The notes under the pieces are model-generated. The model saw only the letters and a program-made list of their open reading frames with translations. It did no database searches and was not told the DNA's origin. A stretch of DNA of 15,552 bases. Origin: Proteiniphilum sp. (lineage in GTDB: Bacteria; Bacteroidota; Bacteroidia; Bacteroidales; Dysgonomonadaceae). The translations under genes and the position numbers were made by a program. The DNA is taken from contig JAISZV010000117.1 of NCBI GenBank assembly GCA_031284475.1, forward strand, positions 1-15,552, written 5' to 3'. Positions 2-15,544 of this stretch are shown piece by piece; position 1 is the stretch's first letter; each line of letters starts with the position of its first letter.

Positions 2-898
2 AAGAACCGTAATCGTATTCTTTGTGAAAAAACCAGGAGTGTTTACTATCACTTTATGAACAAAAAATTTATTCCGTTCCTCAAGGATAATACTATCAAA
101 ACATTCGAAAAAATAGACCATCCGATTATAGCAAACTTTCAGGATTATCTCCTTGCACAAGGGGTAAAACCGCAGACCATTAACCGTTATATGAGCAGCG
201 TTAATGCGGTTTTTAACCGGTTACTTATAACCGGTGTTATTAAAGAAAATCCCTTTGACCGGGTTAAATCGTTGAAGATGGGAGCCAAGAGTACCGATAT
301 ACGGGGCTGCCATGACATCGATAAAATGCGGGGAGTGTTTAATACGCAATGGGATGATGCTCTGTCTTACCTGCTTTGCCTTATGATTTACTCTACCGGC
401 ATGAGAAATTCGGAAATAGAAAAAGTCAGGGTAAATGATATTATTGCATTAGAGGGTATACGGTTTGTAGACATAAAAGAAAGCAAGTCTAAAAACGGCA
501 TAAGGCTTGTCCCACTCCATAATTTTGTTTATCGGAAAATACAGCGATATATAAAACAAACAAACAAGCAGGGGGAACATTATATTTTTTCCGTCCACGG
601 CGGCCCGAATCAATCTACCGACTATAATAAAGCCAATAGCCTTTTGGCAAAGCAATTGAACGTATCAGAGGATGAATTGAAAAAACAAAACATAACCTTT
701 TATAGTGGCCGGCATTTTTGGAAAACTCTCATGAATAGGGAGGGTCTAGGGGATGATATAGAAGAATTCTTTATGGGGCATAAGGTTTCCGGGGACGTTT
801 CAAAGATTTATAATCACAAAGATAAACAAGGTAAAGATAAACTCCTCGAAAAAGCAAAAGAAGCCTTTGCTATGCTTGACCAAAAACTATTCGCTTAG
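2..898 (+). CDS. int: Tyrosine-recombinase phage integrase, 5' end probably outside the window
   Basis: Site-specific recombinase that would integrate and excise the phage. Counting from the ATG at 56, an N-terminal helical core-binding region (residues 1-65) is followed by the catalytic domain: box I Arg at 117 (TGMRNSE), the beta-hairpin Lys near 144-146 (KSKNG), a box II region FYSGRHFWK with Arg219, His242 in MGHK, and the nucleophile Tyr252 in IYNH. The box II position that is normally His (HxxR) is Tyr here. The frame stays open from base 2 to the ATG at 56, and the residues encoded there look like continuing protein. No ribosome binding site lies at a good distance from that ATG, so I take the gene to start left of the window. 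It converges with the repressor gene. The family call is firm; the true start is not visible. Confidence 0.9.
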   Translation, partial: KNRNRILCEKTRSVYYHFMNKKFIPFLKDNTIKTFEKIDHPIIANFQDYLLAQGVKPQTINRYMSSVNAVFNRLLITGVIKENPFDRVKSLKMGAKSTDIRGCHDIDKMRGVFNTQWDDALSYLLCLMIYSTGMRNSEIEKVRVNDIIALEGIRFVDIKESKSKNGIRLVPLHNFVYRKIQRYIKQTNKQGEHYIFSVHGGPNQSTDYNKANSLLAKQLNVSEDELKKQNITFYSGRHFWKTLMNREGLGDDIEEFFMGHKVSGDVSKIYNHKDKQGKDKLLEKAKEAFAMLDQKLFA

Positions 899-953: not shown

Positions 954-1280
954 CTATGGGTCTCTATACTTCCGATTCCACGCATCGACAATGATCATAA
1001 TTTGCCCCTTGTCATATTTTGACAACCGTCGGTAACCATCTAGTAACCTTTGTTCATCATCGGTAAGTTTGATGCGTTCCTCTGTTGCGCCGTTCACAAG
1101 ATATTCAACCGTGGTGTGTAATAGCTTTGCTATATCCACAACTTCCCGTGCATCCGGGTAGGTCTGCCGCAATAACCAGTTCTTGAACGTGCCAAAGGGG
1201 ATTTTGAGTCTGCGAGCCACCTCCTCATGGGTAAGATCGCGGTCTTTTATGGTGTCTTTGAGCCGATCCCAAAAGTTCAT
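954..1280 (-). CDS. CI-like XRE-family helix-turn-helix repressor
   Basis: DNA-binding repressor of 108 aa, likely to maintain lysogeny. Residues 5-60 form an XRE/Cro-CI helix-turn-helix: a short helix (WDRLKDTIKDRD), then LTHEEVARRLKIPFGTFKNWL as the two-helix reader, then a further helix ending in VEYLVNG. The C-terminal 45 residues are helical and charged, too short for a LexA/CI-type autoproteolytic domain, so an SOS self-cleavage mechanism is not evident. The start at 1280 is chosen over the upstream in-frame ATG at 1334 because GGAGG lies four bases before it. It lies between the integrase (convergent) and a divergent gene at 1502, the usual place of a phage immunity repressor. The upstream region holds three similar 16-bp sites that may be its operators. 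Confidence 0.85.
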   Translation of the reverse strand: MNFWDRLKDTIKDRDLTHEEVARRLKIPFGTFKNWLLRQTYPDAREVVDIAKLLHTTVEYLVNGATEERIKLTDDEQRLLDGYRRLSKYDKGQIMIIVDAWNRKYRDP

Positions 1281-1327
1281 ATATCCTCCGAAAGTATGGT
1301 AAAAATGATTATTTTGGGGTGAAAAAT

Positions 1328-1406
1328 GGCTCAATTATGGGCCTAGTATTGTTTATATGACTCATGTTTGGGCTTTATCGCCCTCCAAAAGTCTCATATT
1401 TGGTAG
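1328..1406. promoter_or_regulatory. Three operator-like 16-bp sites in the divergent repressor region
   Basis: Three related sites occur at 1328-1343 (GGCTCAATTATGGGCC), 1359-1374 (GACTCATGTTTGGGCT) and 1391-1406 (GTCTCATATTTGGTAG). Their centres are 31 and 32 bp apart, about three helical turns. Nine of the 16 positions are the same in all three: G1, CTCA at 3-6, T9, T11 and GG at 12-13. The first site is close to palindromic (GGCTCA against TGGGCC). They lie between the repressor start (1280) and the divergent gene (1502), where a phage repressor would bind to control both directions. The sites are seen in the sequence; binding by the adjacent repressor is inference. Confidence 0.5.
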
Positions 1407-2333: not shown

Positions 2334-2353
2334 GAATGTCAGGAGGAAAGTAA

Positions 2354-3118: not shown

Positions 3119-3327
3119 TGGAAGGGTCGAAAAGGTACACCGTGAATGAGGTAGCGGCAACATGTAACTGTGCCCCGCGAACGGCCCGGAAATGGGCGCA
3201 GGGGCATAATGTTTTTTATATCGGAGAAGGCAACCGTAAAGAATACCGATTTACCGATGCGGACATCGAGCGTTTCCGGGAGCGGCCCCTCCCCGGTCGG
3301 CGGTGGTATAAAGACACCGAAAATTGA
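3118..3327 (+). CDS. Small MerR/excisionase-type helix-turn-helix protein
   Basis: A 69-aa DNA-binding protein. The sequence RYTVNEVAATCNCAPRTARK followed by WAQG, an aromatic turn (VFYIGEGNRKEYRF) and TDADIERFRER is the pattern of a MerR-like winged helix-turn-helix used by phage excisionases and small AlpA/Xis-type regulators. Its size suits an excisionase or directionality factor. It is coupled to the preceding gene by a one-base overlap and controlled from the palindromic promoter at 2302-2333. The integrase is encoded about 2.2 kb away on the same strand, consistent with but not proof of an Xis role; a transcriptional regulator is the alternative. Confidence 0.7.
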   Translation: MEGSKRYTVNEVAATCNCAPRTARKWAQGHNVFYIGEGNRKEYRFTDADIERFRERPLPGRRWYKDTEN

Positions 3328-3393
3328 TTTTGATAAGGCAGTACGACGATTGCCCGGCTCGTTCAATGGCTGCCAGCCGGACGCGCCAGCGGC

Positions 3394-3882
3394 TTAAAAC
3401 GGAAGCACCTTAAAGAACCGTAAAACCTTGAAAGCCACGAAAAGTAGGGCGACCGATACCGCCGTTATCACGATTGCCAAAAGTGTGTTACGTTGGTAGA
3501 CCAGCTTTTCATTCTTCGATTCCAGTATTCCGATGCACGTATCTTTCTGCGAAATCGTCTGGGACGCGGCGATCTCGTATTCGTTGAAGGAGAGCGTCAA
3601 TTTCTGGTTCGCTTCCCGCTCTTGCTGCAATAGCTGATTCAAGTTCTCCGATTGCAGCCGCGAGTTCGCCGCTCTCTCGTTCAATCTCGTAGCTTGCGTC
3701 TTCAATTCGTTGACCTGTGATAGCCAGTTCTGCCTCTCCGCTTCTAATTGCTTCTTGTATGCCTCGATAATCTGAAGTTCGCTCTCCGAAATTAGAAACC
3801 ACGGCCCGGCGTCCTGTGCTGGTACCGACCAAGAGCAAGGCCAGAAAAAAACCAAAAAAATAAACAACAATTTTTTCCACAT
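3394..3882 (-). CDS. Exported coiled-coil protein with C-terminal membrane segment, spanin candidate
   Basis: A 162-aa protein. Residues 1-21 form a signal peptide (KK, then a hydrophobic core, ending VPAQDAG). Residues 30-115 are a long Gln/Asn/Glu-rich coiled coil, and residues 133-154 (LLAIVITAVSVALLFVAFKV) are a strong membrane helix with a basic tail. An exported N-terminus, periplasmic coiled coil and C-terminal anchor is the topology of a unimolecular spanin, which joins inner and outer membranes at lysis. Cys16 lies in the signal region, but the preceding FWP is a poor lipobox, so lipidation is doubtful. It follows the peptidase gene with a 13-bp gap and shares its DNA with the ORF at 3509-3892 in another frame. 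The signal sequence resembles that of the exported protein at 4821-5276. Confidence 0.65.
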   Translation of the reverse strand: MWKKLLFIFLVFFWPCSWSVPAQDAGPWFLISESELQIIEAYKKQLEAERQNWLSQVNELKTQATRLNERAANSRLQSENLNQLLQQEREANQKLTLSFNEYEIAASQTISQKDTCIGILESKNEKLVYQRNTLLAIVITAVSVALLFVAFKVLRFFKVLPF

Positions 3883-3892
3883 TCATCACCAC
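3509..3892 (-). CDS. Overlapping-frame ORF with N-terminal membrane helix and coiled coil, i-spanin-like
   Basis: A 127-aa ORF read in another frame over most of the gene at 3394-3882. Residues 7-23 (IVVYFFGFFLALLLVGT) form an N-terminal membrane helix; residues 45-105 are a charged Glu/Arg/Ala coiled coil (ELAITGQRIEDASYEIERES, then more of the same). This is the topology of an Rz-type inner-membrane spanin. The ORF can start at GTG 3892 or ATG 3886; both follow directly on the stop of the peptidase gene (TAA at 3896) and share the same weak GAGTGGTG ribosome binding site. Nested and overlapping frames are typical of Rz/Rz1 pairs. The protein-like content of both frames argues for dual coding, but one may be a chance shadow. 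Confidence 0.4.
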   Translation of the reverse strand: MVMNVEKIVVYFFGFFLALLLVGTSTGRRAVVSNFGERTSDYRGIQEAIRSGEAELAITGQRIEDASYEIERESGELAAAIGELESAIAARAGSEPEIDALLQRIRDRRVPDDFAERYVHRNTGIEE

Positions 3893-3895
3893 TCA

Positions 3896-4474
3896 TTATT
3901 GGTAAAAAAAGTGTCCCCACTTCATAGCTGAATCGCCAACCGGCTTAATCCAGTCTATGAACTTCTGGTAATCGACGCGGATGTCGTTACCGGAACCCCG
4001 CCAATCTTGCAGGGTGTTCCCGTAGGGATCATCCCAGATGACTATATCGGGCATCCCGATCCAGCTTTCCCCCATCCACACCGCACCGACCATACAAACG
4101 ATGTGGCCAAGGGGCTTTTCCTTTTTCCTGGGGAAGCCGGGGAAGGTTCCACTGATAACCACCGGGCGGCCCGCGAGAAGTTCCGCCAAAATGTCGCTGA
4201 TTTTCCTTGTCATGGAAAAGTCCGTAACCTTCCGGCCAATCCAGCGGTTAGTGTACTCCGAAAGAACAGCGTGGATGGTAGGGTCTTTGCCGTTTGCCTC
4301 CATAAAGACCCGCAGATTATCCTCCGGTTGCCGGTGTTCGCCGGGCGGGAAGGCAAACCTCATGTAGGAAAGAGCCATAACCATTGAAGTTACATTACAA
4401 CTACTCAAAGGATTTATGAGGTTGTTTCTCTGCGAAAAATTAACCTTGCCTTCGGATATATTGATTACTTTCAC
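3896..4474 (-). CDS. C39-like cysteine peptidase, endolysin candidate
   Basis: A 192-aa protein with the papain-like C39_2 pattern: Cys26 in NPLSSCNVTSMVMAL (the usual N-Y-x-x-C-G-P-T-S site), His124 in LGHIVCMVG, and Asp148 in IWDDPYGN. These would form the Cys-His-Asp triad. There is no signal peptide or membrane segment, so export would need a holin or other route. In a phage setting this fold is used to cut peptide cross-links of peptidoglycan. It lies between an exported membrane protein and two spanin-like ORFs, which supports a lysis role. The start is GTG at 4474, with AAGGGG six bases upstream. A protease acting on a protein is the alternative. Confidence 0.65.
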   Translation of the reverse strand: MKVINISEGKVNFSQRNNLINPLSSCNVTSMVMALSYMRFAFPPGEHRQPEDNLRVFMEANGKDPTIHAVLSEYTNRWIGRKVTDFSMTRKISDILAELLAGRPVVISGTFPGFPRKKEKPLGHIVCMVGAVWMGESWIGMPDIVIWDDPYGNTLQDWRGSGNDIRVDYQKFIDWIKPVGDSAMKWGHFFYQ

Positions 4475-4485
4475 GGCTTACCCCT

Positions 4486-4872
4486 TTAGCCTAGATTGGC
4501 AATGTATTTTTTGTTTTTGTCGATGCACTCCTGGACAATCCCGGTTCGGTGTTCGTCATTTTTGAAGCGGAGCGCATACCGATTGTATATCTCGATTTTG
4601 TCATCGCACGAGCTCTTGACGGCCTCCTTCACCCGGAGCAACCAGGTATCGACAATCCCGATCATGGTTTCTTTGACTTCATCCCATGTCGGCATTTTCG
4701 CTTCCACATCGAAGACTCGGGAATAGGCGTCAAGGTAACGGTCCTCAAACTGGGTGATTATGCGATCCCGATACCCCTTGTATCGGTCCGGCATAAGCTC
4801 TTTGGTGAAATGATTTTTTATCACCGACGCGGTAAGAATGAGTGAAAAATGAGCGGTGAGTGTTTCCTGCAA
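4486..4872 (-). CDS. Helical protein, probably the frame-shifted 3' part of the preceding gene
   Basis: A 128-aa helical, charged ORF without recognised family. It has only a TTG start (4872), no good ribosome binding site, and overlaps the preceding ORF by 52 bases. The next in-frame ATG (at Met27, MPDRYKG) would drop residues that look like real protein (LTAHFSLILTASVIKNHFTK). Joined to residue 135 of the upstream ORF by a -1 shift at GGC-TTT-TGC, the two would give one continuous helical protein of about 263 aa: exported N-terminus, membrane helix, then this domain. It could still be an independent gene translated by coupling. Confidence 0.55.
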   Translation of the reverse strand: MQETLTAHFSLILTASVIKNHFTKELMPDRYKGYRDRIITQFEDRYLDAYSRVFDVEAKMPTWDEVKETMIGIVDTWLLRVKEAVKSSCDDKIEIYNRYALRFKNDEHRTGIVQECIDKNKKYIANLG

Positions 4873-5276
4873 AAGCCTGATTTCAGGAAATTACGCAGCA
4901 CATTCATGGTATGCAATTCGGAGATCTGTGCAATTTCCTGTAACCGGGTGCGCAGGTTGTCGTCTATGTCGTGTATTTCGTCATCCATAAAATGCTGACA
5001 GCTTGCCATGTGATTGTACTGTTCATAGGCTTTTTTCGTTTCCTCCAGGATGTCGATGTTGCCTATCTTTTTGATTTTGAGCGTCTTAATCGCCCACACA
5101 CTACCGACAATCAAACCCGCCGCCGCCAAAAGCGCAAAAATGCAGATCGCCGCTAAATTAACAAACGGCATGGTCGAAGGATTAACGTCAACCCTTACGT
5201 TACTCCCTGCCTGTTGCGCCGGGACCGTAAAAACGACTGCGAAAATCAACATAACTATAAAAACAAACCTTTTCAT
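4821..5276 (-). CDS. Exported single-span membrane protein of the lysis region, possibly frame-shifted
   Basis: A 151-aa protein. Residues 1-21 are a signal peptide ending VPAQQAG; residues 38-65 (FVNLAAICIFALLAAAGLIV onward) are a membrane helix; residues 66-135 are charged and helical. The last 16 residues (CRKHSPLIFHSFLPRR) are unlike the rest and lie exactly where the next ORF in the -1 frame becomes protein-like, so this end is probably the product of a frameshift. A good ribosome binding site (AAGGAG, seven bases before the ATG) supports the start. It is the first gene after the DGR terminator/leader and heads the lysis-like module. A holin or lysis-regulating role is possible, but the topology is not that of a classical holin. 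Confidence 0.65.
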   Translation of the reverse strand: MKRFVFIVMLIFAVVFTVPAQQAGSNVRVDVNPSTMPFVNLAAICIFALLAAAGLIVGSVWAIKTLKIKKIGNIDILEETKKAYEQYNHMASCQHFMDDEIHDIDDNLRTRLQEIAQISELHTMNVLRNFLKSGFCRKHSPLIFHSFLPRR

Positions 5277-5310
5277 GTTACTTCTCCTTTAATGTTGTAT
5301 TCCAAAATAA

Positions 5311-5348
5311 AAAGGCCGGACAGTCCCGCTGGGGAATATCCGGCCTTT
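5311..5348 (-). terminator. Intrinsic terminator after the DGR reverse transcriptase, in the leader of the lysis genes
   Basis: AAAGGCCGGA (5311-5320) pairs perfectly with TCCGGCCTTT (5339-5348); the loop has an inner TCCC/GGGA pairing. On the - strand the stem is followed by TTATTTT, as expected for a terminator of the DGR transcript. It lies downstream of a possible promoter (5372-5400), so it may also act as an attenuator for the genes at 5276 and below. A related hairpin lies at 11652-11683. Confidence 0.75.
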
Positions 5349-5371
5349 GTTCAATGCAAGCGCCTATCCAC

Positions 5372-5400
5372 ACTATGACCTAAAGATGCCGCTTGTTCAA
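5372..5400 (-). promoter_or_regulatory. Possible sigma70 promoter of the lysis module leader
   Basis: On the - strand TTGAAC (5395-5400) and CATAGT (5372-5377) are 17 bases apart, each matching the consensus at 4 of 6 positions. The transcript would start near 5365, run through GGCGCTTGCATTGAACAA and meet the hairpin at 5311-5348 before the ATG at 5276. The arrangement repeats that at 11740-11768. Confidence 0.4.
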
Positions 5401-5406
5401 GTCCCT

Positions 5407-6441
5407 TCAATCACGTCTGAAAACTATCTTTTCAAGAACCGATTTTGTACTACGCCACCCCTGACAATGGCGGATATAACCGAGAAAACTCATCATACTC
5501 ATTTTTGCGTGTTCGAAAATATCCTGGTATTTCTTGTACATCTCCGGCATTTGCTTAAACCGTTTTTTCGCCCGCTTTATGGTAGACTTGCGGGGTTTGA
5601 TATAGGCGGCCCATATCCTGTACCCGCAAAAATCAATACCCTGTTTAGCCGGAAATATGCCGGTTTTCGGGTTTAAGTTCATTTTCAATGTATCGTGGAT
5701 ATAATTTTCGATTTTGCATAGAAGTTCAAAAAGATATGGTTTATCATGATGCAAAATTACAAAGTCATCCATGTAGCGGGCATAATATAACAGGTGATTA
5801 TCCTCTTTAATCCAGTGATCAAAGGGGCTTAAATCAATGTTAGCGAAAAGCTGGGAGGTCAGCGCCCCGATAGGTATACCTTTTCCATCTTGTACTGGAG
5901 ATTCGTAAGAACGAATTATACCATCGATCAAATTCATAACTTTTTCATCGCTGATGAAGCGTTGTAGTATTTTTTTTAATACGGCATGATCGACACTCGG
6001 GAAGAAACTTTTAATATCGCATTTTAAGACATAATACGTTCCCCATTTTCTTTGCGCTGCCCTCGCGCATTTTTGAACATGATCCACGGCGGCATTGGTT
6101 CCTTTTCCGCGTCGGCAAGCAAAGGTCTCAGAGATAAACCGGTTTTCAAAAATAGGCTCAATCACCTGACAGAGCGCATGATGAACAACACGGTCCCGAA
6201 AGGTCGGCGTGGAAATAAGCCGCTGTTTCGGCTCATGGACAATAAAGTGCCGGTAAGGTTGCGGCTTATAGGTATTCCAGATTAGTTCGTTTTGTAACGT
6301 AATGAGGTTTTCTTCGAGATTATTTTTAAACTTCAGCGATTCCCATCGGTAACGCTTACCGGTGGAAGCCGCTCTAAACGCATGATAAAGGTTTTCAAAA
6401 TCTATTACCTGTTCCCAAAGATGGGAAAAACTTTTAGGCAT
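5407..6441 (-). CDS. DGR-type reverse transcriptase
   Basis: Reverse transcriptase of a diversity-generating retroelement, which copies the TR RNA into cDNA with random bases opposite adenines. The 344 aa show RT motifs in order: KPQPYRHFIVHEPKQRLIS (fingers), RDRVVHHALCQVIEP, the first catalytic Asp142 in KCDIKSFFPSVDH, IPIGALTSQLFAN (191-197 IGALTSQ, the GxxxSQ form typical of DGR enzymes), YARYMDDFVIL with Asp225-Asp226, the NPKTG region and GIDFCGYRIW. There is no maturase or endonuclease domain, unlike group II intron enzymes. The start has GGAG eight bases upstream. It lies 197 bases downstream of TR on the same strand, and is followed by a terminator. No catalytic residue is missing, so it should be active. 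Confidence 0.95.
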   Translation of the reverse strand: MPKSFSHLWEQVIDFENLYHAFRAASTGKRYRWESLKFKNNLEENLITLQNELIWNTYKPQPYRHFIVHEPKQRLISTPTFRDRVVHHALCQVIEPIFENRFISETFACRRGKGTNAAVDHVQKCARAAQRKWGTYYVLKCDIKSFFPSVDHAVLKKILQRFISDEKVMNLIDGIIRSYESPVQDGKGIPIGALTSQLFANIDLSPFDHWIKEDNHLLYYARYMDDFVILHHDKPYLFELLCKIENYIHDTLKMNLNPKTGIFPAKQGIDFCGYRIWAAYIKPRKSTIKRAKKRFKQMPEMYKKYQDIFEHAKMSMMSFLGYIRHCQGWRSTKSVLEKIVFRRD

Positions 6442-6446
6442 ACCCG

Positions 6447-6611
6447 TTACTCCAAAAAAGCGGAGAAGGCGGCTTCCGGCAATATCACGGCAATACGATG
6501 TATTCCTACTTGTCGCCTACTCCTGTACATATTTTCCCTGCCGGTCTGCTTCTTAGGACCGACAAAGAAGGGATACGACTCCTTTTCCCCTCGGTACACT
6601 CGTCTTCCCAT
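6447..6611 (-). CDS. Possible 54-aa ORF between TR and the reverse transcriptase
   Basis: A short basic ORF (MGRRVYRGEKESYPFFV and onward) with a fair ribosome binding site, AGGAG nine bases before the ATG. Its stop overlaps the GGAG that serves the reverse transcriptase. I recognise no family. In DGRs this interval is the RNA spacer needed for cDNA priming, so the ORF may be accidental; it may instead couple translation to the reverse transcriptase. Confidence 0.2.
   Translation of the reverse strand: MGRRVYRGEKESYPFFVGPKKQTGRENMYRSRRQVGIHRIAVILPEAAFSAFLE
6536..6572 (-). ncRNA. Stem-loop in the TR 3' spacer RNA
   Basis: On the - strand GTCGGTC (6557-6563) pairs with GACCGGC (6540-6546) around a ten-base loop, and CCCT/AGGG (6569-6572 with 6536-6539) extends the stem past a one-sided bulge. 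It lies about 70-100 bases downstream of TR in the interval known, in the Bordetella phage DGR, to be needed for cDNA priming with the RT-Avd complex. The structure is read by eye; its function is inference. Confidence 0.4.
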
Positions 6612-6638
6612 GAGAATACGCTCCTGACTTAGAGGGAG

Positions 6639-6746
6639 AGCGGCCCGACAACCGATGTTGTTGTTCACGTTCGACCGGGCGTTGTTCAAATTCAGGGACG
6701 CCACGCCCGCGTTCGCGCCGTTGTTCCAGTTGCCACCCCGGATCGG
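6639..6746 (-). repeat. DGR template repeat (TR)
   Basis: Template repeat of 108 bp. Read on the - strand it holds eleven Asn codons (AAC or AAT), giving an adenine at most exposed positions. Its encoded pattern is PIRGGNWNNGANAG, then LNLNNARSNVNNNIGCRAA. It aligns without gaps to 7211-7318 with 14 mismatches, all at TR adenines, out of 24 adenines in TR. It lies between avd and the reverse transcriptase. The ORF that spans it (start at 6791) is best seen as the template rather than a protein gene. Confidence 0.95.
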
Positions 6747-6816
6747 CACACCAACCACTAAACAGCCATACCCCTTTATGTTACTTCGCATGTTAATATG
6801 TTCCTAACTTGACCCC

Positions 6817-7167
6817 TTATTGCCGGACGAATTTTAACCAGCCGCCCAACATGCGACCTACTTCGGTAACCACCATAGAGAAATTTTTATATTTCTCGAA
6901 CGGCACGAATTCCAATTCCATACCCATCCGAACCAAAAATTTCAATTCGGATAATTTCATATCTGCCTGTTGGAGCACGCGCGACTTTTCCGGCTTCGCC
7001 GGAACCACGCTTGCCCTTTCAAGCAACGTCCCTGCTTCCCAAAGGACGCACCGTATGTCGGAGGCAAGGCTATATTTTTCACTCCGGGGAAAATTCCGCA
7101 CAATTACATAAACATATTTCGCCATGTCCACGTATTTCTGCACAACCTTCATGCTATTTTCTACCAC
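6817..7167 (-). CDS. avd: DGR accessory variability determinant (Avd-like four-helix protein)
   Basis: A 116-aa, nearly all-helical basic protein of the Avd / S23 intervening-sequence-protein fold, which forms a pentameric barrel that binds the reverse transcriptase and the TR RNA and is needed for mutagenic cDNA synthesis in studied DGRs. Four helices can be seen: around 1-28 (VVQKYVDMAKYVYVIVRNFP), 32-55 (YSLASDIRCVLWEAGTLLER), 61-85 (SRVLQQADMKLSELKFLVRM) and 88-114 (FEKYKNFSMVVTEVGRMLGG). The length is typical. GTG at 7167 is preceded by GGAG eight bases upstream, so it is preferred over the ATG six codons in. It lies 31 bp downstream of the variable-protein stop and just upstream of TR, the standard DGR order. 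Confidence 0.88.
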   Translation of the reverse strand: MVENSMKVVQKYVDMAKYVYVIVRNFPRSEKYSLASDIRCVLWEAGTLLERASVVPAKPEKSRVLQQADMKLSELKFLVRMGMELEFVPFEKYKNFSMVVTEVGRMLGGWLKFVRQ

Positions 7168-7198
7168 GATCAGGTCTCCAGGTTTCAGGGAATCAGGA

Positions 7199-8173
7199 TC
7201 ACACTATAAAAGCGGCCCGACAACCGAAGCCGGTGTACACGTTCGACCGGGCGGTGCTCAAACTCAGGGACGCCACGCCCGCGCTCGCGCCGTCGGACCA
7301 GGCGCCACCCCGGATCGGAAAACGCTCACCTTCAGCGGTGATCCAGAACCCGCCCTTTGCCTGGCTGAAAATCGTCAATGGGGTATTGCCGCTAGTGATA
7401 TTCGGTACAATCATGGCTTGGGCAAGCTGTTTCTTTACCGCATCGCTCAAGGAGCCGAAAGTAGTGGCCATGGTCCGCCAGCCGCTTTCACTGGCAGACG
7501 ATGCGGGGAATATGACCTGTGCCCCTGTAGGATTCGGCCAGTTTGCCTCGGCAAGATTAAAATCGTTATCAACGGGCATGTATACCTTGCCGTCAACAAT
7601 TTTGAAACCGTCCTGCCATTCCCAAACATTACCGACTAAATCGGCGATACCGGCAATTGAATTGTCATGCCGCCACGATACCGGGCCGCTGCCACCGAGT
7701 GTTTTTGCCGTGGGATTGTCCGGCGCGGGGGTACCCGTTTCATAGGGGGCTGCATGGGATTTCAAGTAATTGGTATTACCCCTGGGCTGGAACCCATTTT
7801 TTAAGCACCAGAGGGCCACCGCCGCCCACTCCCAATTGGTCATTAGGTGGAAGCCAGGGCCGTTTGCGGTACAGGCGGCTTTTGCCTGGTCAAAATTGAT
7901 GCTGACCTTCGGGGAACATCCGGGAATGGAAATCGCGTACCCCTTCTCAAAAATCGCCTGATACGCCCCGATAAAGATTTCATTCTTTATCACGCCGTCC
8001 ACCACAAACGCCGGATGAACACCGGAACCCAAAGTAGGATCCAGGTCCTCCACATTGAACTTCGGTATGCGTACCATATACAAGGGATCGCCGTTCACAT
8101 TGTACTTGACGTATACCTTACCGCCCGTCGCGGCTAAAACCGCGTTAAATAACGTGTCCTTATTCAAGGCCAT
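7199..8173 (-). CDS. DGR variable protein, FGE/C-type-lectin fold, phage tail tip
   Basis: Target of the DGR, 324 aa. Residues 1-60 are a probable attachment region (KDTLFNAVLAATGGKVYVKY). Residues 65-321 have the formylglycine-generating-enzyme-like C-type lectin fold: FHLMTNWEWAAVALWCLKNG (108-127), PRGNTNY, GIADLVGNVWEWQDG (175-189) and the C-terminal GGFW through FPIRGGAW and GFGCRAAF. Residues 286-321 are encoded by the variable repeat; eleven of them differ from TR (A291, S293, D294, S297, S304, S306, T307, Y313, T314, G315, F316). No signal peptide or lipobox, which fits a virion protein rather than a surface lipoprotein such as treponemal TvpA. The start at 8173 (MALNK) has AGGAGG at good spacing; the ATG at 8197 does not. 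It follows tail genes, so it should be the receptor-binding tip. Confidence 0.92.
   Translation of the reverse strand: MALNKDTLFNAVLAATGGKVYVKYNVNGDPLYMVRIPKFNVEDLDPTLGSGVHPAFVVDGVIKNEIFIGAYQAIFEKGYAISIPGCSPKVSINFDQAKAACTANGPGFHLMTNWEWAAVALWCLKNGFQPRGNTNYLKSHAAPYETGTPAPDNPTAKTLGGSGPVSWRHDNSIAGIADLVGNVWEWQDGFKIVDGKVYMPVDNDFNLAEANWPNPTGAQVIFPASSASESGWRTMATTFGSLSDAVKKQLAQAMIVPNITSGNTPLTIFSQAKGGFWITAEGERFPIRGGAWSDGASAGVASLSLSTARSNVYTGFGCRAAFIV
7211..7318 (-). repeat. DGR variable repeat (VR) with IMH
   Basis: The 108-bp copy of TR at the 3' end of the variable-protein gene. On the coding strand, TR adenines are replaced by G at seven sites, C at four and T at three; non-adenine positions are all unchanged. 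The 17 bp nearest the stop codon (7211-7227) equal TR (6639-6655) and would act as the GC-rich initiation-of-mutagenic-homing (IMH) stretch. I see no clear hairpin just beyond VR. Confidence 0.95.
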
Positions 8174-8570
8174 TTTCTTCCTCCTGCATTGTTTCACCCC
8201 ACGTTTTATCCAGGGGCCACAGATTTAACACCACGGATTCCCCATCCAGAGGCACCGGCACCGTCTCCGTGTGTGTTGCCGGTAACTCCTCGACCTCCCC
8301 TATGCCGCTATGGGTCAATCCCTGCGGTGGCCCGTCAACCTCCACGGTTTGATAGTTCCGTGGGGGTATCACCACATCTGCGACATGCTCGCAACACGGC
8401 ATGAGACCGCGATGTACCCTGCCTTGACACCTTCCAAACGGGATTAGTACCTCTTGGTCGCCTTCCTCAAGGGCAAGGTCAATCGTTATACCCGCTATCG
8501 TGAGTATCGTACCGTCAATAGAGTAATCCCTAAAATGTTCACGGGCGGGATCAACTTGCTTAATTATCAT
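8160..8570 (-). CDS. Unrecognised 136-aa protein upstream of the DGR target
   Basis: I do not recognise this protein. It is soluble, acidic and proline-rich in the middle, with a predicted beta-rich N-terminal half (YSIDGTILTIAGITIDLALE) and no signal peptide. The start at 8570 (MIIKQVD) is preferred over 8612 because GGAGGG lies four bases before it, the same arrangement as at the fibre gene start 11628. Its 3' end overlaps the ribosome binding site and first codons of the variable protein by 14 bases, so the two are probably translationally coupled. Linking or assembly of the tail tip is a possible role suggested only by position. Confidence 0.7.
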   Translation of the reverse strand: MIIKQVDPAREHFRDYSIDGTILTIAGITIDLALEEGDQEVLIPFGRCQGRVHRGLMPCCEHVADVVIPPRNYQTVEVDGPPQGLTHSGIGEVEELPATHTETVPVPLDGESVVLNLWPLDKTWGETMQEEENGLE

Positions 8571-8584
8571 CGTACCCTCCGATA

Positions 8585-9670
8585 CTATAAAGTGGGCTTG
8601 AATACCGTCCATCGGACGCGGACAGCATCAAGGGTTCCTTCTGCTTTGAGGTTGAAGCCGTTTGCCGCCTTATTGTCGGCATGAATAATCGGCCACTGAT
8701 TATACCCTCCCTTGTAATCTAGAATTTCAAGCTGAACAGTGTATTCCGCATCCAACAGATTGAACGGCAGTGCAACCGAAACATAAGCAACGCTATTGAA
8801 TTGTACAGGATAGGCGGCTTCGACACGGCGGACATCGGTCATGGTTACGGCGTTAAGATAGGGATCGTTCTGGTAGCTGTTGCCAGCGGGAACACTGAAA
8901 CGATATAAGGCCATCCCGTTATCCGGTACAAGTCCGTCAAGCGGCGTACAGGCAAACCGGATACTGCCTGAATTGAAATAGAGGTAGGCATAACAGTAAC
9001 GCGTTACATTGCCGTAATTGTCCGGCACCAGCGCGGAATTCGGGAAAGCCGGACATACCGATTCCATACCGTTCATAAAAAATTTTCCGGCAAGCACTGA
9101 GATATTGCGCAAAGCCGTGGTACTCTTTTCAACGGTAATCCCCGCTATGACGCCCCGGTTGATAATCGTAGCGATTCCGGTTTGGATGCGCTGGTCAACC
9201 GTTTTTTTACTTTCCTGATGCGCCCTCCCGCCGAGGTCAAGCGCATAGGCGATCATATCAACGAATTCAGCCCGTTCATTGACCACAACCCACATGCCGT
9301 TTACCCATTCAAAATGGACGCTTTCATGGGCCCTCGCCGTGATACTCATGCTTGGGGATGAGGCGGATTTGACCGTTGCGTCCGAATTCGCGGAATTAAT
9401 CACGGCTACACGACAGCCGGTAAAAGCGGCATTGCCCAAGGTGAGGGTAATCCCACCCGCAACAATCTCAAAAACACTATGTGCCTGAATCTGCGTCGTC
9501 GTACTGGTTTCCGTTACGGTTTTGGGACGCTGGAAACCAAAGGGCGCAAGCACATTGTTATTGGCATCGCGGGGAGTTATCGATCCCGTAATCTTGGTAC
9601 CAAACGGCGGGGTATATCCCGAAAACCCGGGGACTTTAAGCGCGTTAAGCGTACAGTCAATGGTAGCCAT
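8585..9670 (-). CDS. Phage tail-fibre-like structural protein
   Basis: A 361-aa beta-rich protein with no signal peptide. Residues 65-135 (FEIVAGGITLTLGNAAFTGC, later HFEWVNGMWVVV) have the repeating strand pattern of phage fibre domains ending in an FxWVNGxW motif. The middle (residues 150-260) repeats short strand elements and aromatic-rich turns, and the last 90 residues resemble a globular fibre domain. The start at 9670 has AGGAG five bases upstream. It stands between the UGA-interrupted fibre frame and the 136-aa gene in an unbroken leftward series, so it is part of the same distal tail structure. I can name no precise family. Confidence 0.65.
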   Translation of the reverse strand: MATIDCTLNALKVPGFSGYTPPFGTKITGSITPRDANNNVLAPFGFQRPKTVTETSTTTQIQAHSVFEIVAGGITLTLGNAAFTGCRVAVINSANSDATVKSASSPSMSITARAHESVHFEWVNGMWVVVNERAEFVDMIAYALDLGGRAHQESKKTVDQRIQTGIATIINRGVIAGITVEKSTTALRNISVLAGKFFMNGMESVCPAFPNSALVPDNYGNVTRYCYAYLYFNSGSIRFACTPLDGLVPDNGMALYRFSVPAGNSYQNDPYLNAVTMTDVRRVEAAYPVQFNSVAYVSVALPFNLLDAEYTVQLEILDYKGGYNQWPIIHADNKAANGFNLKAEGTLDAVRVRWTVFKPTL

Positions 9671-10066
9671 ATAAGCTCCTTTTACGTGTTATATATGGCG
9701 GCTAAAACCGCCATTCTGAACTGCTCACCCTCAAACAGATTAGTCGCGATCCTATTGGGATTATCAAACATAAGGACCGCCCATTTTTGGGTATAATCCA
9801 ACCCCCCATAGGGGATGTGTGCCGTGGTATTACTGATAAATGAATCAAGGGCTAACGCGGTAAACCGGTCAATCGTCAATTCGTCAATGTTTACCGTGTC
9901 CCTGCCTTCATTTACTATCATATCGCTTTCCTCGCCCGTGGTTTGATAATGCTTGGTAACCTGAAATTGCATGTTGCCGATAAACAAAGCAAATTGCTGT
10001 TGCGTGGCAACAAGGGCGATATGTACCCAGGTGTTTGGGTATATTTCAATCGTGCTCAGGTCTATA

Positions 10067-10089
10067 ACTTCGCTCCCCTTGGGGGAAGT
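10067..10089 (-). promoter_or_regulatory. Possible stem-loop downstream of the second in-frame UGA
   Basis: On the - strand ACTTC (10085-10089) pairs with GAAGT (10067-10071) and CCC with GGG inside, around a CAAG loop and a three-base bulge. It starts nine bases after the UGA at 10099-10101, whose context is UGA-CUU. Confidence 0.3.
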
Positions 10090-10120
10090 GTGTTCAAGTC
10101 AGTTAGTGGTTATCTTTGCC

Positions 10121-10219
10121 GCGCTATAGGGAATATCGCCGGTTTCACCGACAGCGCTGTAGGGAATATCTCCCGTAGCACCAGCCGAACTGTATTCAAT
10201 ATCCTGCCCGCCGATCATA
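10121..10219 (-). repeat. Three-copy 33-bp tandem repeat
   Basis: Copies at 10121-10153 and 10154-10186 are close matches (GCGCTRTAGGGAATATC at the start of each); 10187-10219 is a degenerate third copy. They keep the reading frame and encode 11-residue units around TGDIPYSAVGE. The array lies about 20 bp from the second in-frame TGA. Slippage here could change domain length. Confidence 0.6.
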
Positions 10220-10394
10220 AAAATTAATGCTTCATTTCCCGGCGTTTTAAGATGTAGTACGACTATGTTGGAAACCACGGGAAGCCGCAGCCACCATTCA
10301 ACCGTTGTATCGGCGTTAGGGACTTTAGCTGAAATTGCAACATTCCCATACAGGGACTTTCCGGGATTTTCAAAAGGCGGCACATCGGACACGG

Positions 10395-10431
10395 CGGGAC
10401 TCAAATATATTTGTCCGTTTGAATCTTCCCG
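10395..10431 (-). promoter_or_regulatory. Possible stem-loop directly after the first in-frame UGA
   Basis: Directly after UGA, on the - strand, CGGGA pairs with TCCCG and TTCAAA with TTTGAG, separated by a three-base bulge (AGA) and closed by a 12-base loop. That is eleven pairs over 37 bases. The stop context is UGA-CGG. The loop lacks the GU-type bases of the known E. coli fdhF SECIS, so selenocysteine insertion is not supported. Confidence 0.35.
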
Positions 10432-11628
10432 TCAGACAAGAATCGGGACGGAGGTGTAACCCAGGGTACTAGTGGAAGTCTGATTTTGATTCTTAAAATC
10501 CGTATCAAAATGATAGACTTCACTCTGAGGAGAAATGAAGGGCAAGCCGACATCCCAGCGTTTTTCACGGCGGGCGGCGATCAAGGTGTTGGTCAGTGTA
10601 AGGTGTGTATCGGAGTAGACCTTGAGGGTTTTTATCCTGTCCCCGCCCCGATCTTCCGATAAAACAATTTCAGCCCATTGCCGATTTTTCCGACCATACG
10701 CCCGCCCATCGGCTGGGGCATCATGTACCATATCGGCTATGAGACCCTCTATTACTGCTATGGTATCGGAAAGGGAGGTAACCCTCGCCCGCCTGTACAT
10801 AATTTCTTTAACCAGGGAGGCAAAAAGACTGTCGGTTGCCGCGAATGTTTCATCACTGCCCAGCGTGTTATAGTTTTCGCCAAAGGGGACCGATGTACCG
10901 TTTACTTGATTCGCACCGATGCCAAAGTCTATGTTGTTTCTCTTGATAACGCTTTGCCCATGCGCTCCCGTGTGGGTATGTTCCTTCACAAATACCTGTT
11001 GTAATTCCTGCGAGGGAATAACCAGGAAGGTACGGGCTTTCTGCGTTGTCCATGCCGGATTTTCATTTCCCTGACGGATTGCCGTTACCTTATGGACATC
11101 GGAAGCGGCGATAACCGAAATACCCGGACGTACCACAAGTTCCGCCAGTTTCAGCCAGCCAGTGTCCGCTTCAGGCGCACCATCCGCCCCGGTCACCCCC
11201 TGCTTGACCTGATACTGGATAATCAATCGTTCTTTGGTGTTTACGTTAAAGAATTGTCCGGTTTCCGTATCAGGATTGTAAAACGCCCGGCGCTGATTAT
11301 CGTATGCCTCGAAAACACCCCGCGCCTGCACGGTATCAATGCGGGTATCTCCGGTAGGCAGCGTTATGGGAATCAGGGCGGTACGCTGTTTATTGTAAAT
11401 GGGAAGGTCAAGCAGTAACCCATTACCCCATAGTTTCTCGATATGGATTCCAACCGCCACCGTATCCGGCGTAATATCGCCGCCTACAAGATAATCAATA
11501 TCGGTCGATACCAGCATCCGATCCAATAGGGCGGCGTTCCGAATAATGCTCTCAAAGCCGTGTTGAAAATCGGTATTTTTCGTCATCTCGTGTTCATGCA
11601 CAAGCGCGGTTGTCATATCATGTGCCAC
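10432..11628 (-). CDS. Phage tail-fibre-like protein
   Basis: A 398-aa protein without signal peptide. The N-terminal 40 residues are helical (HEHEMTKNTDFQHGFESIIR). The middle is beta-rich and describes a fibre- or baseplate-attached structural protein (DIDYLVGGDITPDTVAVGIH, later VRPGISVIAASDVHKVTAIR). The section HTHTGAHGQSVIKRNNIDFG has a His-rich turn of the kind found in metal-binding fibre segments. The start is GTG at 11628 because GGAGGG lies four bases before it; the ORF itself is open to 11676 inside the terminator hairpin. It ends at TGA 10432, but the frame continues as LamG-like sequence, so this may be only the short form. It has its own strong promoter (11740-11768) and a leader terminator. 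Confidence 0.7.
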   Translation of the reverse strand: MAHDMTTALVHEHEMTKNTDFQHGFESIIRNAALLDRMLVSTDIDYLVGGDITPDTVAVGIHIEKLWGNGLLLDLPIYNKQRTALIPITLPTGDTRIDTVQARGVFEAYDNQRRAFYNPDTETGQFFNVNTKERLIIQYQVKQGVTGADGAPEADTGWLKLAELVVRPGISVIAASDVHKVTAIRQGNENPAWTTQKARTFLVIPSQELQQVFVKEHTHTGAHGQSVIKRNNIDFGIGANQVNGTSVPFGENYNTLGSDETFAATDSLFASLVKEIMYRRARVTSLSDTIAVIEGLIADMVHDAPADGRAYGRKNRQWAEIVLSEDRGGDRIKTLKVYSDTHLTLTNTLIAARREKRWDVGLPFISPQSEVYHFDTDFKNQNQTSTSTLGYTSVPILV

Positions 11629-11651
11629 AATACCCTCCGAAACCATAAAAA

Positions 11652-11775: not shown

Positions 11776-12861
11776 TCATGGTTCGGTCTCCGTTCTTTCC
11801 GCGAATTCCACAAAGGACTGTATTCCCCTCGGTCTCACCGCGTCCAACACGGACTTATACACCACGCCCTGTAGCGCCCCTTTACGCCCCACGATATATG
11901 AAGTGTCAAAATAACTTTCTTTGCTATAGTCAAGTCCGGGTATGGGATCAACCGTTCCCTTGCCGAGATGCAGCGTTTTATCTTCAAGGGCATACCCTTC
12001 ATACTGAATTACGATAGTGTATGATGGGTTTTTGGGTTTCAAGAAAAAACGCACATAATCAATATATGCCTCCCTGCCCCCGGTAGAAACAAACTTAATC
12101 TTTAGCTGCGCGGTTTCCGTGCTCAATACCACAAAGCAAAATGCGTCTCTCCAATCGTCATGTTCAAACCAGTTGGTAACCGGGGCCGTTTGCCAGGGAT
12201 TAGCCGTTTCATTCCATAGGACTTTTTCATCGGCGTTAAAATACTTCCCGCTTGAGTTCTGGATTATCACGCCACACTTACCTTTCAGAAAGAAATGCAG
12301 GGTGTATACGCCCGCCGAAACTTCGGTTAACGTTTGCAGACAGGATTGTCCCGATGCTCCATGGAAAGACAAACCGCGCTTTTTGGAAAATCGGGCATCG
12401 GCTGTATAAGCCGCGCCGTCCGCCACTATCCAATGTTCTTCTTCTTCAAAATCGCCGTTTTGTAGGAAACTCTCCTCATTGGTACTTTCACATACATAGG
12501 CATGGATGCCGCCAAAATAGGTCTCAAAAACATGCTCCATATTCGGACCGTTCCCCCAGATTTCATCACACGCCCGCTCGGTAAGCGCCCGCATCCGCCT
12601 TAATAATACCGCATCCGATTCTTCCAACTGCTTGCGTAACTTCGTGAATTGCTTCACGATCATTTCTAGACTTTCCTCTTCATGCTTCTTCACATCATCG
12701 GTGCGGGTATAATAATCAATAAATGCTACAAGTTCCGTTACTTCATTCGCGGTCGCCCCGTGGCCCTCATAATCGGAGAGGACCGCCTGAATAACCGGAT
12801 CCTTCTTGTTTATGCCGGTAGCGAGAAAATCAAGCAGATTTTGACCTTCATGCTCATTCAT
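11776..12861 (-). CDS. Phage tail protein with carbohydrate-binding-like domain
   Basis: A 361-aa protein. Residues 1-115 are helical (DFLATGINKKDPVIQAVLSD, then LTERACDEIWGNGPNMEHVF), like the tail proteins that follow baseplate J in contractile-tail phages. Residues 133-275 look like a galactose-binding-like jelly-roll (FLQNGDFEEEEHWIVADGAA, a long series of strands, IDYVRFFLKP), suited to binding a glycan on the host. The C-terminal 85 residues are a separate small domain. The start at 12861 (MNEHEG) is chosen because its ATG overlaps the TGA of the baseplate gene (ATGA); the ORF is also open from 12885. It is the last gene before the internal promoter and terminator. Confidence 0.7.
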   Translation of the reverse strand: MNEHEGQNLLDFLATGINKKDPVIQAVLSDYEGHGATANEVTELVAFIDYYTRTDDVKKHEEESLEMIVKQFTKLRKQLEESDAVLLRRMRALTERACDEIWGNGPNMEHVFETYFGGIHAYVCESTNEESFLQNGDFEEEEHWIVADGAAYTADARFSKKRGLSFHGASGQSCLQTLTEVSAGVYTLHFFLKGKCGVIIQNSSGKYFNADEKVLWNETANPWQTAPVTNWFEHDDWRDAFCFVVLSTETAQLKIKFVSTGGREAYIDYVRFFLKPKNPSYTIVIQYEGYALEDKTLHLGKGTVDPIPGLDYSKESYFDTSYIVGRKGALQGVVYKSVLDAVRPRGIQSFVEFAERTETEP

Positions 12862-13946
12862 GATCTCACCACCGTTACACTGCAACTTTGAAAGCGGGCT
12901 ATCTGATGCGTATTGATTCCCATATTCTCCTTATCGGGGATCTGAGCGTCCAGTATATATGACATCCGCCGCAACACCACAATTAAATCGGAAATTAAAA
13001 CGGATTGCCCAATTAAAAGCCCGTTGATAAACGTTTTGACCGCCTCGGTAACTTCGGAAATGACAACCGATTCTCCTCTGTCGTTAATCGCATCCTGCGT
13101 AACGGTAACGCGGATATTGAGACTTATCGGTATTTTTTCCGGCCTTACATACCGGATATGAATGCCGGGAGCGCGGTAACCGCCGTTTGTTTTTGTCCGG
13201 TTTCCGTCAATCTTTGCTTTTACCTGCGTTATCGCATCATCGGTCATTCCGCCTGATCCGTCCTCAAGATAAACGGTCATGTTCCATATATTATTAAGCG
13301 GGGGAAAATGCTCGTCAATTTGCAGGGACCGTACAAGGTGTGTTTCAGTGAGGGCAGACAAAAAACCGTAGCCGTTTGTTCTGGAGAGGCCAAGAATATA
13401 TTCGGTAAAACGGTTGATATACGCTCCCCAATCCTCACTATCAACGCCTCCCGTTGCCGACCCCGCGTTACTTACCGTTACTATATCGGATGGAAGGGCG
13501 CTCACAAGCGTTTTAATGCTTTGCGCTCCGACATTGTATTTTTCACCTATATCCTCCGCAACCGCCGATATTTCGCCTGAATCCTTTGCGCCGGAAACTA
13601 CCGAGCCTAATTCCGTGGTGATAAACTTTAGCCCCCCGGTAGCAACCGTGGTGCCTATCGGTATCGCCGTTTCATAGGAATAGGTTTTTGCCCGAGAAAA
13701 AGTGAGCTTTACCGATGCCTTCAGCCCTTCCTTCTTTTGAAAGCCAAAAACCGAATAAGGCAAGGCCCGCATAAATGAAGAAAATCCGACACGGCAGCGC
13801 ACATAAAGTAATGCCAGTTCCCGCGCCGTTGCTTCTATCTGTGATTCCAGCACCGCCCCATCGTTAAAATGGGTGAGCTTGTCCTGGTGAGCAATGATAT
13901 AATTTCTCATAGATTCCTGTATTTCGTTAAAGGATTTCGTTTGCAT
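12858..13946 (-). CDS. Baseplate J-like protein of a contractile tail
   Basis: A 362-aa protein of the baseplate J/gp6-wedge family. Visible hallmarks are the N-terminal helix with ATARELALLYVRCRVGFSSF, the strand PIGTTVATGGLKFITTELGS, repeated beta elements (GSATGGVDSEDWGAYINRF with the common GG-D-E pattern), TNGYGFLSALTET, and VYLEDGSGGMTDDAITQVKA followed by GIHIRYVRPEKIPISLNIRV. It forms the ring of baseplate wedges and indicates a contractile tail. The ATG at 13946 shares a base with the upstream stop (TAATG) and has GGAGGG four bases before it; its own stop overlaps the next start (ATGA). Confidence 0.85.
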   Translation of the reverse strand: MQTKSFNEIQESMRNYIIAHQDKLTHFNDGAVLESQIEATARELALLYVRCRVGFSSFMRALPYSVFGFQKKEGLKASVKLTFSRAKTYSYETAIPIGTTVATGGLKFITTELGSVVSGAKDSGEISAVAEDIGEKYNVGAQSIKTLVSALPSDIVTVSNAGSATGGVDSEDWGAYINRFTEYILGLSRTNGYGFLSALTETHLVRSLQIDEHFPPLNNIWNMTVYLEDGSGGMTDDAITQVKAKIDGNRTKTNGGYRAPGIHIRYVRPEKIPISLNIRVTVTQDAINDRGESVVISEVTEAVKTFINGLLIGQSVLISDLIVVLRRMSYILDAQIPDKENMGINTHQIARFQSCSVTVVRS

Positions 13947-15544
13947 TATGCCCTCCCTGTCGCACTGCCGCTTGAGTGGTTTATATCCGTGTAATCTACT
14001 GTTATATTCAGTCCGTCTCCTATGCCGGTAAACCTTATATTAGTAATTGCACTCACTCGCGGGTCCCTGCTTACGGTTAAATCAATCGAAGATATAATAT
14101 AGGCAACGCCTGCCGTTGAATCGCTGATATTGGTTCTTATTCCGTAGGCAACAAGCCTTATACGCCGGTTCACACTTTCACGTAACCTTAAAAGAATTGC
14201 CTGATTCAGGTTGTCGGTCCCGTCTGTAAGCATATAATCGCCGCTTGCCGATGGGACGGTATAGCCTTCATGGTTAAGATAAATGTCCCGCCCATAATTG
14301 TCCCGGTCCTCCGGACGTGAGAAAATCCGATTATAAGCGTGGCGGCCTGACGGTGTAAGTATCGGAATTCTTATCGTATCCCCCGGATTCAATGCATCTA
14401 TTGAAGCCACACCGTTATATATGGCGATATCAATCGCTCGGTCGGGGCTCCCATAAAACTGTGTCGCTAATGATTCAAGGGAGTCTGTAGATTTTAGGGT
14501 AACTTCCTCAAAGCCATAGGATAAAACAATACGTACTATATTTCCAGAACTTCCTGTGTTTCCTTCACTTCCATTGCTTATCCCTGTACTGCCGCTTCCG
14601 CTCCCTTCACTTCCACTACTTATCCCTGCGCCTGCACTTCCCTGCCCTGCATCTAGATTGGTCTCGCCTGCTGTTACCTCCGGCAGTTCGCTTGATTTCG
14701 ATGTTGCTACAATGGCGTTTGCGTTATCTTCAAGCCCCGCACACAAGTCAGCCCAGGTATCCTGATATTCGGTCCCGGTCATGTTGTACTCATCCAAAAC
14801 TTCTTGCGGAGCCCAATAGTCTGATTTGCCATAAGAAAGAATAGTATCCGATATAGTCTCAACAGACCTTAAAAGTTTTTTACCGGCGTTCATAAATTCA
14901 AGACCCAGATTCAAAACCTTTGTGGACACATCGCCGGGGATTTTTATGATTTCATTCGCGGTATCAATCATATTAGTAACGCCATCTATGTAGCCCATGA
15001 GAACATCGGTATAAGCATCTAAAATGGCGGCTACATCCCGGATACTTGCATTAAGGTCCTCCAAAAAGGCGTTAGCCTCGTTAATATACTTCAGGCCCTT
15101 TTTAAGCAACGCCACGCTTCCCTTGATCTTGTCAAGCGCCGCCCGTGCAAAGCCCAGTTTCGGCGCGAGTATGTTCTTCATGTTTTCACTGTCTTTCTCA
15201 AGATCGACAGCGGTAAACTCTATGCTGTATTTATAGGTAAACGGTCTGTCGGATGCCCGCCGTATCTTAAAATCTCCGGGGAATACGCGCCAATAATTTT
15301 TAATAGTGCCGACATCCGTGCCATCAGAGGATTGCCCCTTTAGGTAATTCATTTTCGATAGGTCGTAAAGCATTATCCTGGTTTCTTTTGTCCGGTAATC
15401 TCCTGTTTTGTATTTGTGGATTAGATTGCGTAAATAATATATTTCTTGCTCCCCGGTCATCCATTTGTCCGCGCCAGGGGCTTTAGGATTATAGATTTTT
15501 TTTAAGTCCTGGTTTATGGTAGAGCCGGAAAGCGATATTTTCAC
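13946..15544 (-). CDS. Tail hub/baseplate fusion protein with LysM-like and gp25-like domains
   Basis: A 532-aa protein. Residues 1-125 form a beta-rich tail-hub-like region (IMLYDLSKMNYLKG, then PFTYKYSIEFTAVDLEKD). Residues 125-285 are helical with weak coiled-coil character. Residues 286-336 are a Gly/Ser-rich linker (GSEGSGSGSTGISNGSEG). Residues 345-395 resemble a LysM peptidoglycan-binding domain (STDSLESLATQFYG, NPGDTIRIPI). Residues 420-515 resemble baseplate wedge gp25 (GDYMLTDGTDNLNQAILLRL, TAGVAYIISSIDLTVSRDP). The GTG start overlaps an upstream TGA (GTGA), so another gene ends here and lies beyond the window. Fusion of hub, LysM and gp25 in one chain is less usual; in many phages they are separate. 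Confidence 0.7.
   Translation of the reverse strand: MKISLSGSTINQDLKKIYNPKAPGADKWMTGEQEIYYLRNLIHKYKTGDYRTKETRIMLYDLSKMNYLKGQSSDGTDVGTIKNYWRVFPGDFKIRRASDRPFTYKYSIEFTAVDLEKDSENMKNILAPKLGFARAALDKIKGSVALLKKGLKYINEANAFLEDLNASIRDVAAILDAYTDVLMGYIDGVTNMIDTANEIIKIPGDVSTKVLNLGLEFMNAGKKLLRSVETISDTILSYGKSDYWAPQEVLDEYNMTGTEYQDTWADLCAGLEDNANAIVATSKSSELPEVTAGETNLDAGQGSAGAGISSGSEGSGSGSTGISNGSEGNTGSSGNIVRIVLSYGFEEVTLKSTDSLESLATQFYGSPDRAIDIAIYNGVASIDALNPGDTIRIPILTPSGRHAYNRIFSRPEDRDNYGRDIYLNHEGYTVPSASGDYMLTDGTDNLNQAILLRLRESVNRRIRLVAYGIRTNISDSTAGVAYIISSIDLTVSRDPRVSAITNIRFTGIGDGLNITVDYTDINHSSGSATGRA
14562..14628 (-). repeat. Direct repeats in the Gly/Ser linker
   Basis: Two 25-bp copies at 14562-14586 and 14604-14628 differ at three positions and lie 42 bp apart, so they keep the frame. 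They encode the repeated GISxGSEG units of the linker in the tail hub protein. Confidence 0.6.

Follow-up and report, generated by a model that had tools for sequence, protein, structure and literature searches.

The closest described counterpart of the locus reported here is the diversity-generating retroelement (DGR) of the Bordetella phage BPP-1, organised as mtd-avd-TR-brt, where TR is the template repeat. Passages of PMC3240598 state that a hairpin/cruciform past the variable repeat (VR) of BPP-1 is required for efficient retrohoming. According to passages of PMC12875486 (2026), residual activity persists without this hairpin, and the mechanism by which the cDNA enters the VR remains incompletely understood. 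We analysed a stretch of 15,552 nucleotides from a Proteiniphilum sp. assembly (GCA_031284475.1, contig JAISZV010000117.1, positions 1 to 15,552), hereafter called the window. It carries a DGR of a known kind, resembling that of BPP-1: the order along the coding strand is target, avd, TR and reverse transcriptase (RT) gene, as in BPP-1, the RT and Avd proteins are homologous to those of that phage, and the target likewise belongs to a tail module and is diversified at its 3' end. However, BPP-1 has a hairpin and no array past its VR, whereas the window has an array of short direct repeats, YCTGR, and no hairpin was found there. Our explanation for the whole, which we hold to be probable, is that this phage DGR of the BPP-1 kind uses the YCTGR array as a cis element of its target site, possibly as a docking site for the RT-Avd complex. 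We consider it very likely that the array serves a function within the target site of this DGR lineage.

The array lies in the 31-bp gap that separates, on the coding strand, the stop codon of the target gene (7201-7199) from the avd start (7167), and reads CCTGA, CCTGA, CCTGG and CCTGA. The coding strand of the window has no other chain in which at least three CTG units follow each other at 7/8 spacing, and at least four units occurred in one of 200 shuffles of the whole window. The family of homologous targets was gathered by protein alone and gave 43 flanks from 39 of 48 loci, the other nine having no usable target 3' end. Three to five units, i.e. at least three CTGs at 7/8 spacing, follow the target in 28 of these flanks, usually spaced 8-7-8-8 or 7-8-8. 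In 33 non-redundant flanks out of 37, the most enriched 3-mer is CTG (129 vs 33 expected) and the most enriched 4-mer is CTGA (75 vs 6.7 expected), and 81 pairs of CTG lie 7 or 8 nt apart, with echoes at 15-16 and 23. Across 61 TR/VR pairs, which span other DGR types too, we counted 53 CTGR links after the VR and none after the TR, for a background of 0.016 per 70-nt window.

Scans of viral contigs that were blind to proteins point the same way. The five-unit CTGR pattern with 8-7-8-8 spacing gave 23 stretches. In ten of them the pattern coincides with the point where a DGR target gene stops, whereas many of the non-DGR ones are simple repeats. Its 8-8-7-8 control gave 22 stretches, eight of them one and the same sequence, and none had a tblastn match to the RT, Avd or target of the window. 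Similarly, 16 of the 20 stretches found with the four-unit 7-8-8 pattern are at DGR target ends, versus two of the seven of the 8-8-7 control.

In a phylogenetic tree of 99 RTs, a branch of 24 (support 99) comprises 22 members with an array and two with a partial one, and BPP-1 falls outside it. States were assigned by hand to 71 of the RTs (26 array, five partial, 40 none), and the tree is a quick one with long branches; on it, 'array or partial' versus 'none' requires three changes (22.9 when the 'none' label is shuffled) and the strict array label seven (21.2 in shuffles). As the array follows the RT tree, it might be a functionless leftover of shared ancestry. We find this very improbable, given what has been kept. 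In a consensus of 48 flanks (eight selected by their CTGR pattern, the loci L017, L023, L032, L118, L122 and L123 being omitted), the C, T and G are imposed by the search, but Y and R hold 0.73 and 0.75 bits compared with 0.02-0.22 bits in the middle linker columns. In addition, the register is ordered, and conservation spans targets that are 35% to 76% identical in protein to that of the window.

Two-target contigs (L018, L029, L121 and L175/L180) have a chain of three or four CTG units after each VR, and avd is about 1 kb away from the array in L140, L142 and, for the first array, L176, on the contig of L018. Because both VRs of such contigs have chains and avd can be that remote, the array is tied to the VR and not to avd. 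The same distances speak against a role in translation, whereby the array would supply stop codons in more than one frame after a hypervariable gene, or act as the ribosome-binding region for the gene that follows. Such a role would account for the many CTGA units, for the GGAG that unit 3 of the window provides ahead of the avd GTG, and for the first unit forming or adjoining the stop codon in all ten stretches that the 8-7-8-8 scan placed at DGRs. Nevertheless, the leading YC serves neither function, and 54 of the 158 units in the 48-flank set are not CTGA, which makes a translation feature a quite improbable reading of the array.

Two broader identities for the array were considered and rejected. 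As for a repeat of Treponema genomes, the five-unit pattern occurs at five places in four of the 295 genomes of the order examined, and not in that of the window, which has four units; judged by their letters, these five matches resemble simple tandem repeats. A general DGR feature was discarded as well, the array being absent from the flanks of BPP-1, Bise and pYD38-B and, with the exceptions of L038 and L086, from loci with targets of other types.

The hairpin/cruciform of BPP-1 (PMC3240598) is likewise a cis element just past the VR, but it is an inverted repeat, whereas the array of the window's lineage is made of direct repeats. No GC-rich hairpin/cruciform of the BPP-1 type with a GRNA loop was found after the VR of the window, where there is no perfect stem of at least 6 in 60 nt, nor of at least 7 in 130 nt. 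Both elements occur in the family: counting only perfect stems of 7 or more as hairpins, the 43 flanks divide into eight with array and hairpin, 20 with the array only, nine with a hairpin only and six with neither. The related loci L113 and L114 carry hairpins between array units 1 and 2, with a GAAA loop, of the GRNA type, in L113 and a GTAT loop in L114. Inverted repeats that differ in stem and loop are found at this same point in L113, L114 and L115; reading their sequences, extrusion of most of the stem would bring the array units to about 6 to 8 nt from each other. Array and hairpin also make up the shared stretch of L175 and L180, both on contig IMGVR_UViG_3300025030_001282, whose targets are 45% identical in protein and whose 45 nt after the VR are identical; the 70 nt shown agree as well.

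How the array might operate can be pictured by extrapolation from BPP-1. The RT-Avd complex would copy the template RNA, composed of TR and a structured spacer, making errors at adenines. The resulting cDNA would take the place of the VR at the 3' terminus of the tail-module gene, so that as many as 13 residues of its TaqVP-like, lectin-fold product could change. The row of YCTGR units, one every 7 or 8 nt, would mark the 3' edge of the target site for retrohoming, and might be read as a single strand by a ring-shaped RT-Avd complex, thus offering a docking site without the BPP-1 hairpin. The 7-8 nt spacing differs from the helical repeat of DNA, and no chain exceeds five units in the 43 family flanks or in the 16 DGR stretches of the scan, with L158 as a possible exception. 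Avd chains in the PDB number five for one entry (4dwl) and 45 for nine entries (the 8ub7 group), i.e. five per entry on average. The non-helical spacing, the nearly free linkers and a unit count that stops at five would fit a single strand wrapped around a ring of five subunits, for which Avd is the obvious candidate. The protein TRAP, an 11-mer, binds repeats of its RNA. One may thus envisage, as a possible though doubtful model, that ordered arrays of four or five units past the IMH (initiation of mutagenic homing) sequence define DGR target sites of a second class, with the pentameric Avd ring binding the single strand, one unit per subunit, docking the RT-Avd-RNA complex and being able to replace the hairpin. 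Base pairing of the array with the template RNA would be another way to recognise the site. The spacer contains AAGTCAGGAGC directly after TR, with one TCAG within, but at 16 loci the complementary CAG chains in the spacer or before TR did not exceed a length of 2, so that this pairing is disfavoured and its probability very slight indeed.

Several observations weigh against a docking site, or against a functional array at all. The role of the array is predicted from sequence, and its putative link with Avd stems from a numerical coincidence; moreover, BPP-1 has Avd and no array. The array and the presumed ribosome-binding site of avd overlap in the window. As 15 of the 43 family flanks have fewer than three units, the array is not universal, and the homologous targets L118, L122 and L123 carry none. 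Among loci of other target types in the set of 61 pairs, any link is present only in L038 and L086, and in L029 neither VR is followed by a strict CTGR link, both being counted by CTG only. The loci are related, not independent, the RTs of L140/L147 and L142/L144 being identical or near-identical. At least nine of the 20 stretches of the 7-8-8 scan are on contigs already in the dataset; because stretches partly overlap loci already gathered, the scans measure specificity more than independent discovery. Finally, a match of the 8-8-7-8 control at a contig edge, L158:22-72, comprises seven CTGR units spaced 7 or 8 nt apart, and no DGR gene was found beside it.

The DGR itself has left a clear record of copying in the window. 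Realigned by computer, TR and VR match over 108 bp with zero gaps, and all 14 mismatches fall on adenines of the TR coding strand (T on the + strand), of which there are 24, with none of the other 84 positions changed, just as a count by hand had given. The probability that 14 randomly placed mismatches would all land on 24 of 108 positions is 1.4e-11. The substitutions are A>G (seven), A>C (four) and A>T (three), and they alter 11 codons, each with a residue change (291, 293, 294, 297, 304, 306, 307, 313, 314, 315 and 316, counted from the ATG at 8173). In principle, the 13 adenine-holding codons of TR allow about 1.4e14 protein variants. The shared 17-bp IMH sequence at the VR end is matched by the TR end, beyond which the sequences diverge. 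In the window's own assembly (78% complete), TR matches two places at E <= 0.001, namely itself and the VR, and no additional VR copy was found at that threshold. A 114-codon open frame (6447-6791, minus strand), possibly a chance one, encloses TR, its start being upstream of the repeat.

The nearest cassettes that we found belong to Spirochaetia bacterium MS499-44 (L112, L113 and L114), to Treponema metagenome-assembled genomes (MAGs; L119 and others) and to the viral contig L037, from which we infer a phage with a Treponema-type host. The MAGs that hold these cassettes are presumably of termite gut origin. In the genomes of 61 relatives, no close cassette was found by RT: 26 of the 61 have a match, including the window's own, and the best other one is 39% identical. 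A comparison of six cassettes, with L120 left outside it, shows adenine sites changed at frequencies from 10/20 to 17/23, and non-adenine sites changed at 0/84 in the window, 0/88 in L119, 2/85 in L113, 4/85 in L114, 8/85 in L112 and 15/83 in L037. Non-adenine mismatches in other copies, which the original prediction had named as evidence against it, are therefore present in L113, L114, L112 and L037, and leave the window's own pattern untouched. We read them as drift after the last retrohoming or, in L037, as a target swap.

Where two TRs of the window, L113 and L119 disagree at a non-adenine column, the VR agrees with its own TR in 53 cases, with another TR in none and with neither in one. 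With L112 and L114 added, the counts are 303, 22 and 5, and for the window against L037 alone 13, 2 and 1. Since the VR follows its own TR, it is rewritten from the latter even as the target genes drift apart; upstream of the VR, those of the window and L113 are 75% identical. Together with the 0/84, this tracking gives good support to the earlier claim that the DGR has acted. The TR/VR pattern shows that copying was recent, and we infer from it that the element may still be active, although present activity goes beyond what the pattern records. Alternatively, the DGR might be a frozen or decaying copy that no longer works, as could be surmised from the lack of a detected hairpin in the window, from the uncertain viability of a phage on a MAG contig and from the non-adenine drift in some kin. 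The unchanged non-adenine sites, the intact RT and Avd frames and the covariation of the spacer argue otherwise, and we consider a defunct element unlikely.

As for the protein and RNA components, the RT and Avd open reading frames (ORFs) are intact, as predicted, and both match DGR families, NF033474 being the NCBIfam equivalog for the DGR Avd. The best PDB sequence match of RT is 8ub7_A (5e-60), which we take to be the BPP-1 complex. The RT has the motifs IGALTSQ and YMDD, and shares a larger clade of the tree with the RT of BPP-1. IGALTSQ satisfies the (I/V/L)GxxxSQ rule given for motif 4 of DGR-clade RTs in passages of PMC3521204. The spacer between TR and the RT gene is conserved in six cassettes, with a consensus fold of 45 pairs, ten of which show two-sided changes that keep the pairing in at least one sequence. 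No Rfam family reached its gathering score in the window. The target gene, whose last codons are occupied by the VR, likely starts with the ATG at 8173, the ORF tool proposing a GTG at 8197. The identification of its product as a lectin-fold protein in a phage tail module stands, and by analogy with Mtd, receptor switching would be a likely effect of its diversification. The DGR was also called complete, which holds for RT, Avd, spacer, TR/VR and target but not for a BPP-1-type hairpin, which was not found.

Other described systems resemble the window in part. The target shares its lectin fold and the place of its variable residues with TaqVP of a Thermus aquaticus prophage (5vf4, PMC6328139), whose host differs. 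Reading two alignments together, the nine variable positions of TaqVP given in passages of that report are all on adenine codons of the window TR. TvpA of Treponema denticola (2y3c) was not recovered by sequence. The DGRs of Vibrio phage VHML, Bacillus phage BalMu-1 and Faecalibacterium phage Lagaffe have targets homologous to that of the window and RTs within the broader array-bearing clade. They have two, three and three units at 7/8 spacing, respectively, fewer than the window, and VHML and Lagaffe have a hairpin in addition.

The array is not mentioned in the text passages, figures aside, of the literature searched (PMC3240598, PMC12875486, PMC6199706, PMC8144416, PMC10743442, PMC3521204, PMC5006420, PMC4372165 and PMC4891356); a prior description is possible, but it is apparently a cis element new to the literature. 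An ordered array that follows the VR and not TR, in many members without a hairpin, would offer a specific target for mutagenesis and a possible ligand of Avd. It would also aid in calling VRs in contigs without TR, and help build portable target sites for laboratory diversification systems.

Features of the window, with coordinates, strand and supporting matches
Feature	Coordinates	Strand	Basis or details
Tyrosine integrase	2..898	+	phrog_1 5e-35
Phage repressor-like regulator	954..1334	-	phrog_8 2e-11
DGR RT, 344 aa	5407..6441	-	PF00078 7e-22; phrog_1423 3e-132
Spacer (Sp) of template RNA between TR and RT	6442..6638	-	6-cassette alignment, consensus fold
TR	6639..6746	-	24 adenines; codons with adenines: 11 AAY + 2 ATC
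17-bp shared 3' end of TR, IMH*-like	6639..6655	-	TR/VR alignment
Avd, 116 aa	6817..7167	-	NF033474 3.5e-25, above cut-off; PF22296 bAvd 1e-21; phrog_3206 Avd 9e-24
YCTGR array, 4 units	7170..7196	-	C positions: CTGA 7196, CTGA 7188, CTGG 7181, CTGA 7173; spacing 8-7-8
VR	7211..7318	-	ungapped alignment to TR
17-bp shared 3' end of VR, IMH-like	7211..7227	-	TR/VR alignment
Target gene, 324 aa, TaqVP-like C-type-lectin/FGE fold	7199..8173	-	start = ATG 8173
Baseplate J-like protein	12858..13946	-	PF04865 1e-19; phrog_6 3e-37
Baseplate-type protein	13946..15544	-	phrog_975 7e-8

The presence of integrase, repressor, excisionase-like and baseplate genes indicates a temperate tailed phage. The window starts at base 1 of its contig, in a fragmented assembly of 363 contigs. 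Among the related cassettes, the three of the MS499-44 genome are on three contigs and show unequal non-adenine drift. The L037 cassette (L037:5114-5793) is 78% identical to that of the window in RT, 85% in Avd, 93% in TR and only 54% in the target, which was apparently exchanged, its VR departing from TR at the non-adenine sites counted above. The targets of L113, L114 and L120 were kept outside the target alignment, as the stretch held a stop; in L113 and L114 the stop precedes the start, and the L120 target has an in-frame stop about 20 codons into the aligned part. Lastly, a 192-aa ORF of the window (3896-4474, minus strand) is weakly endolysin-like (phrog_10051, 0.00098) and might have a role in lysis.

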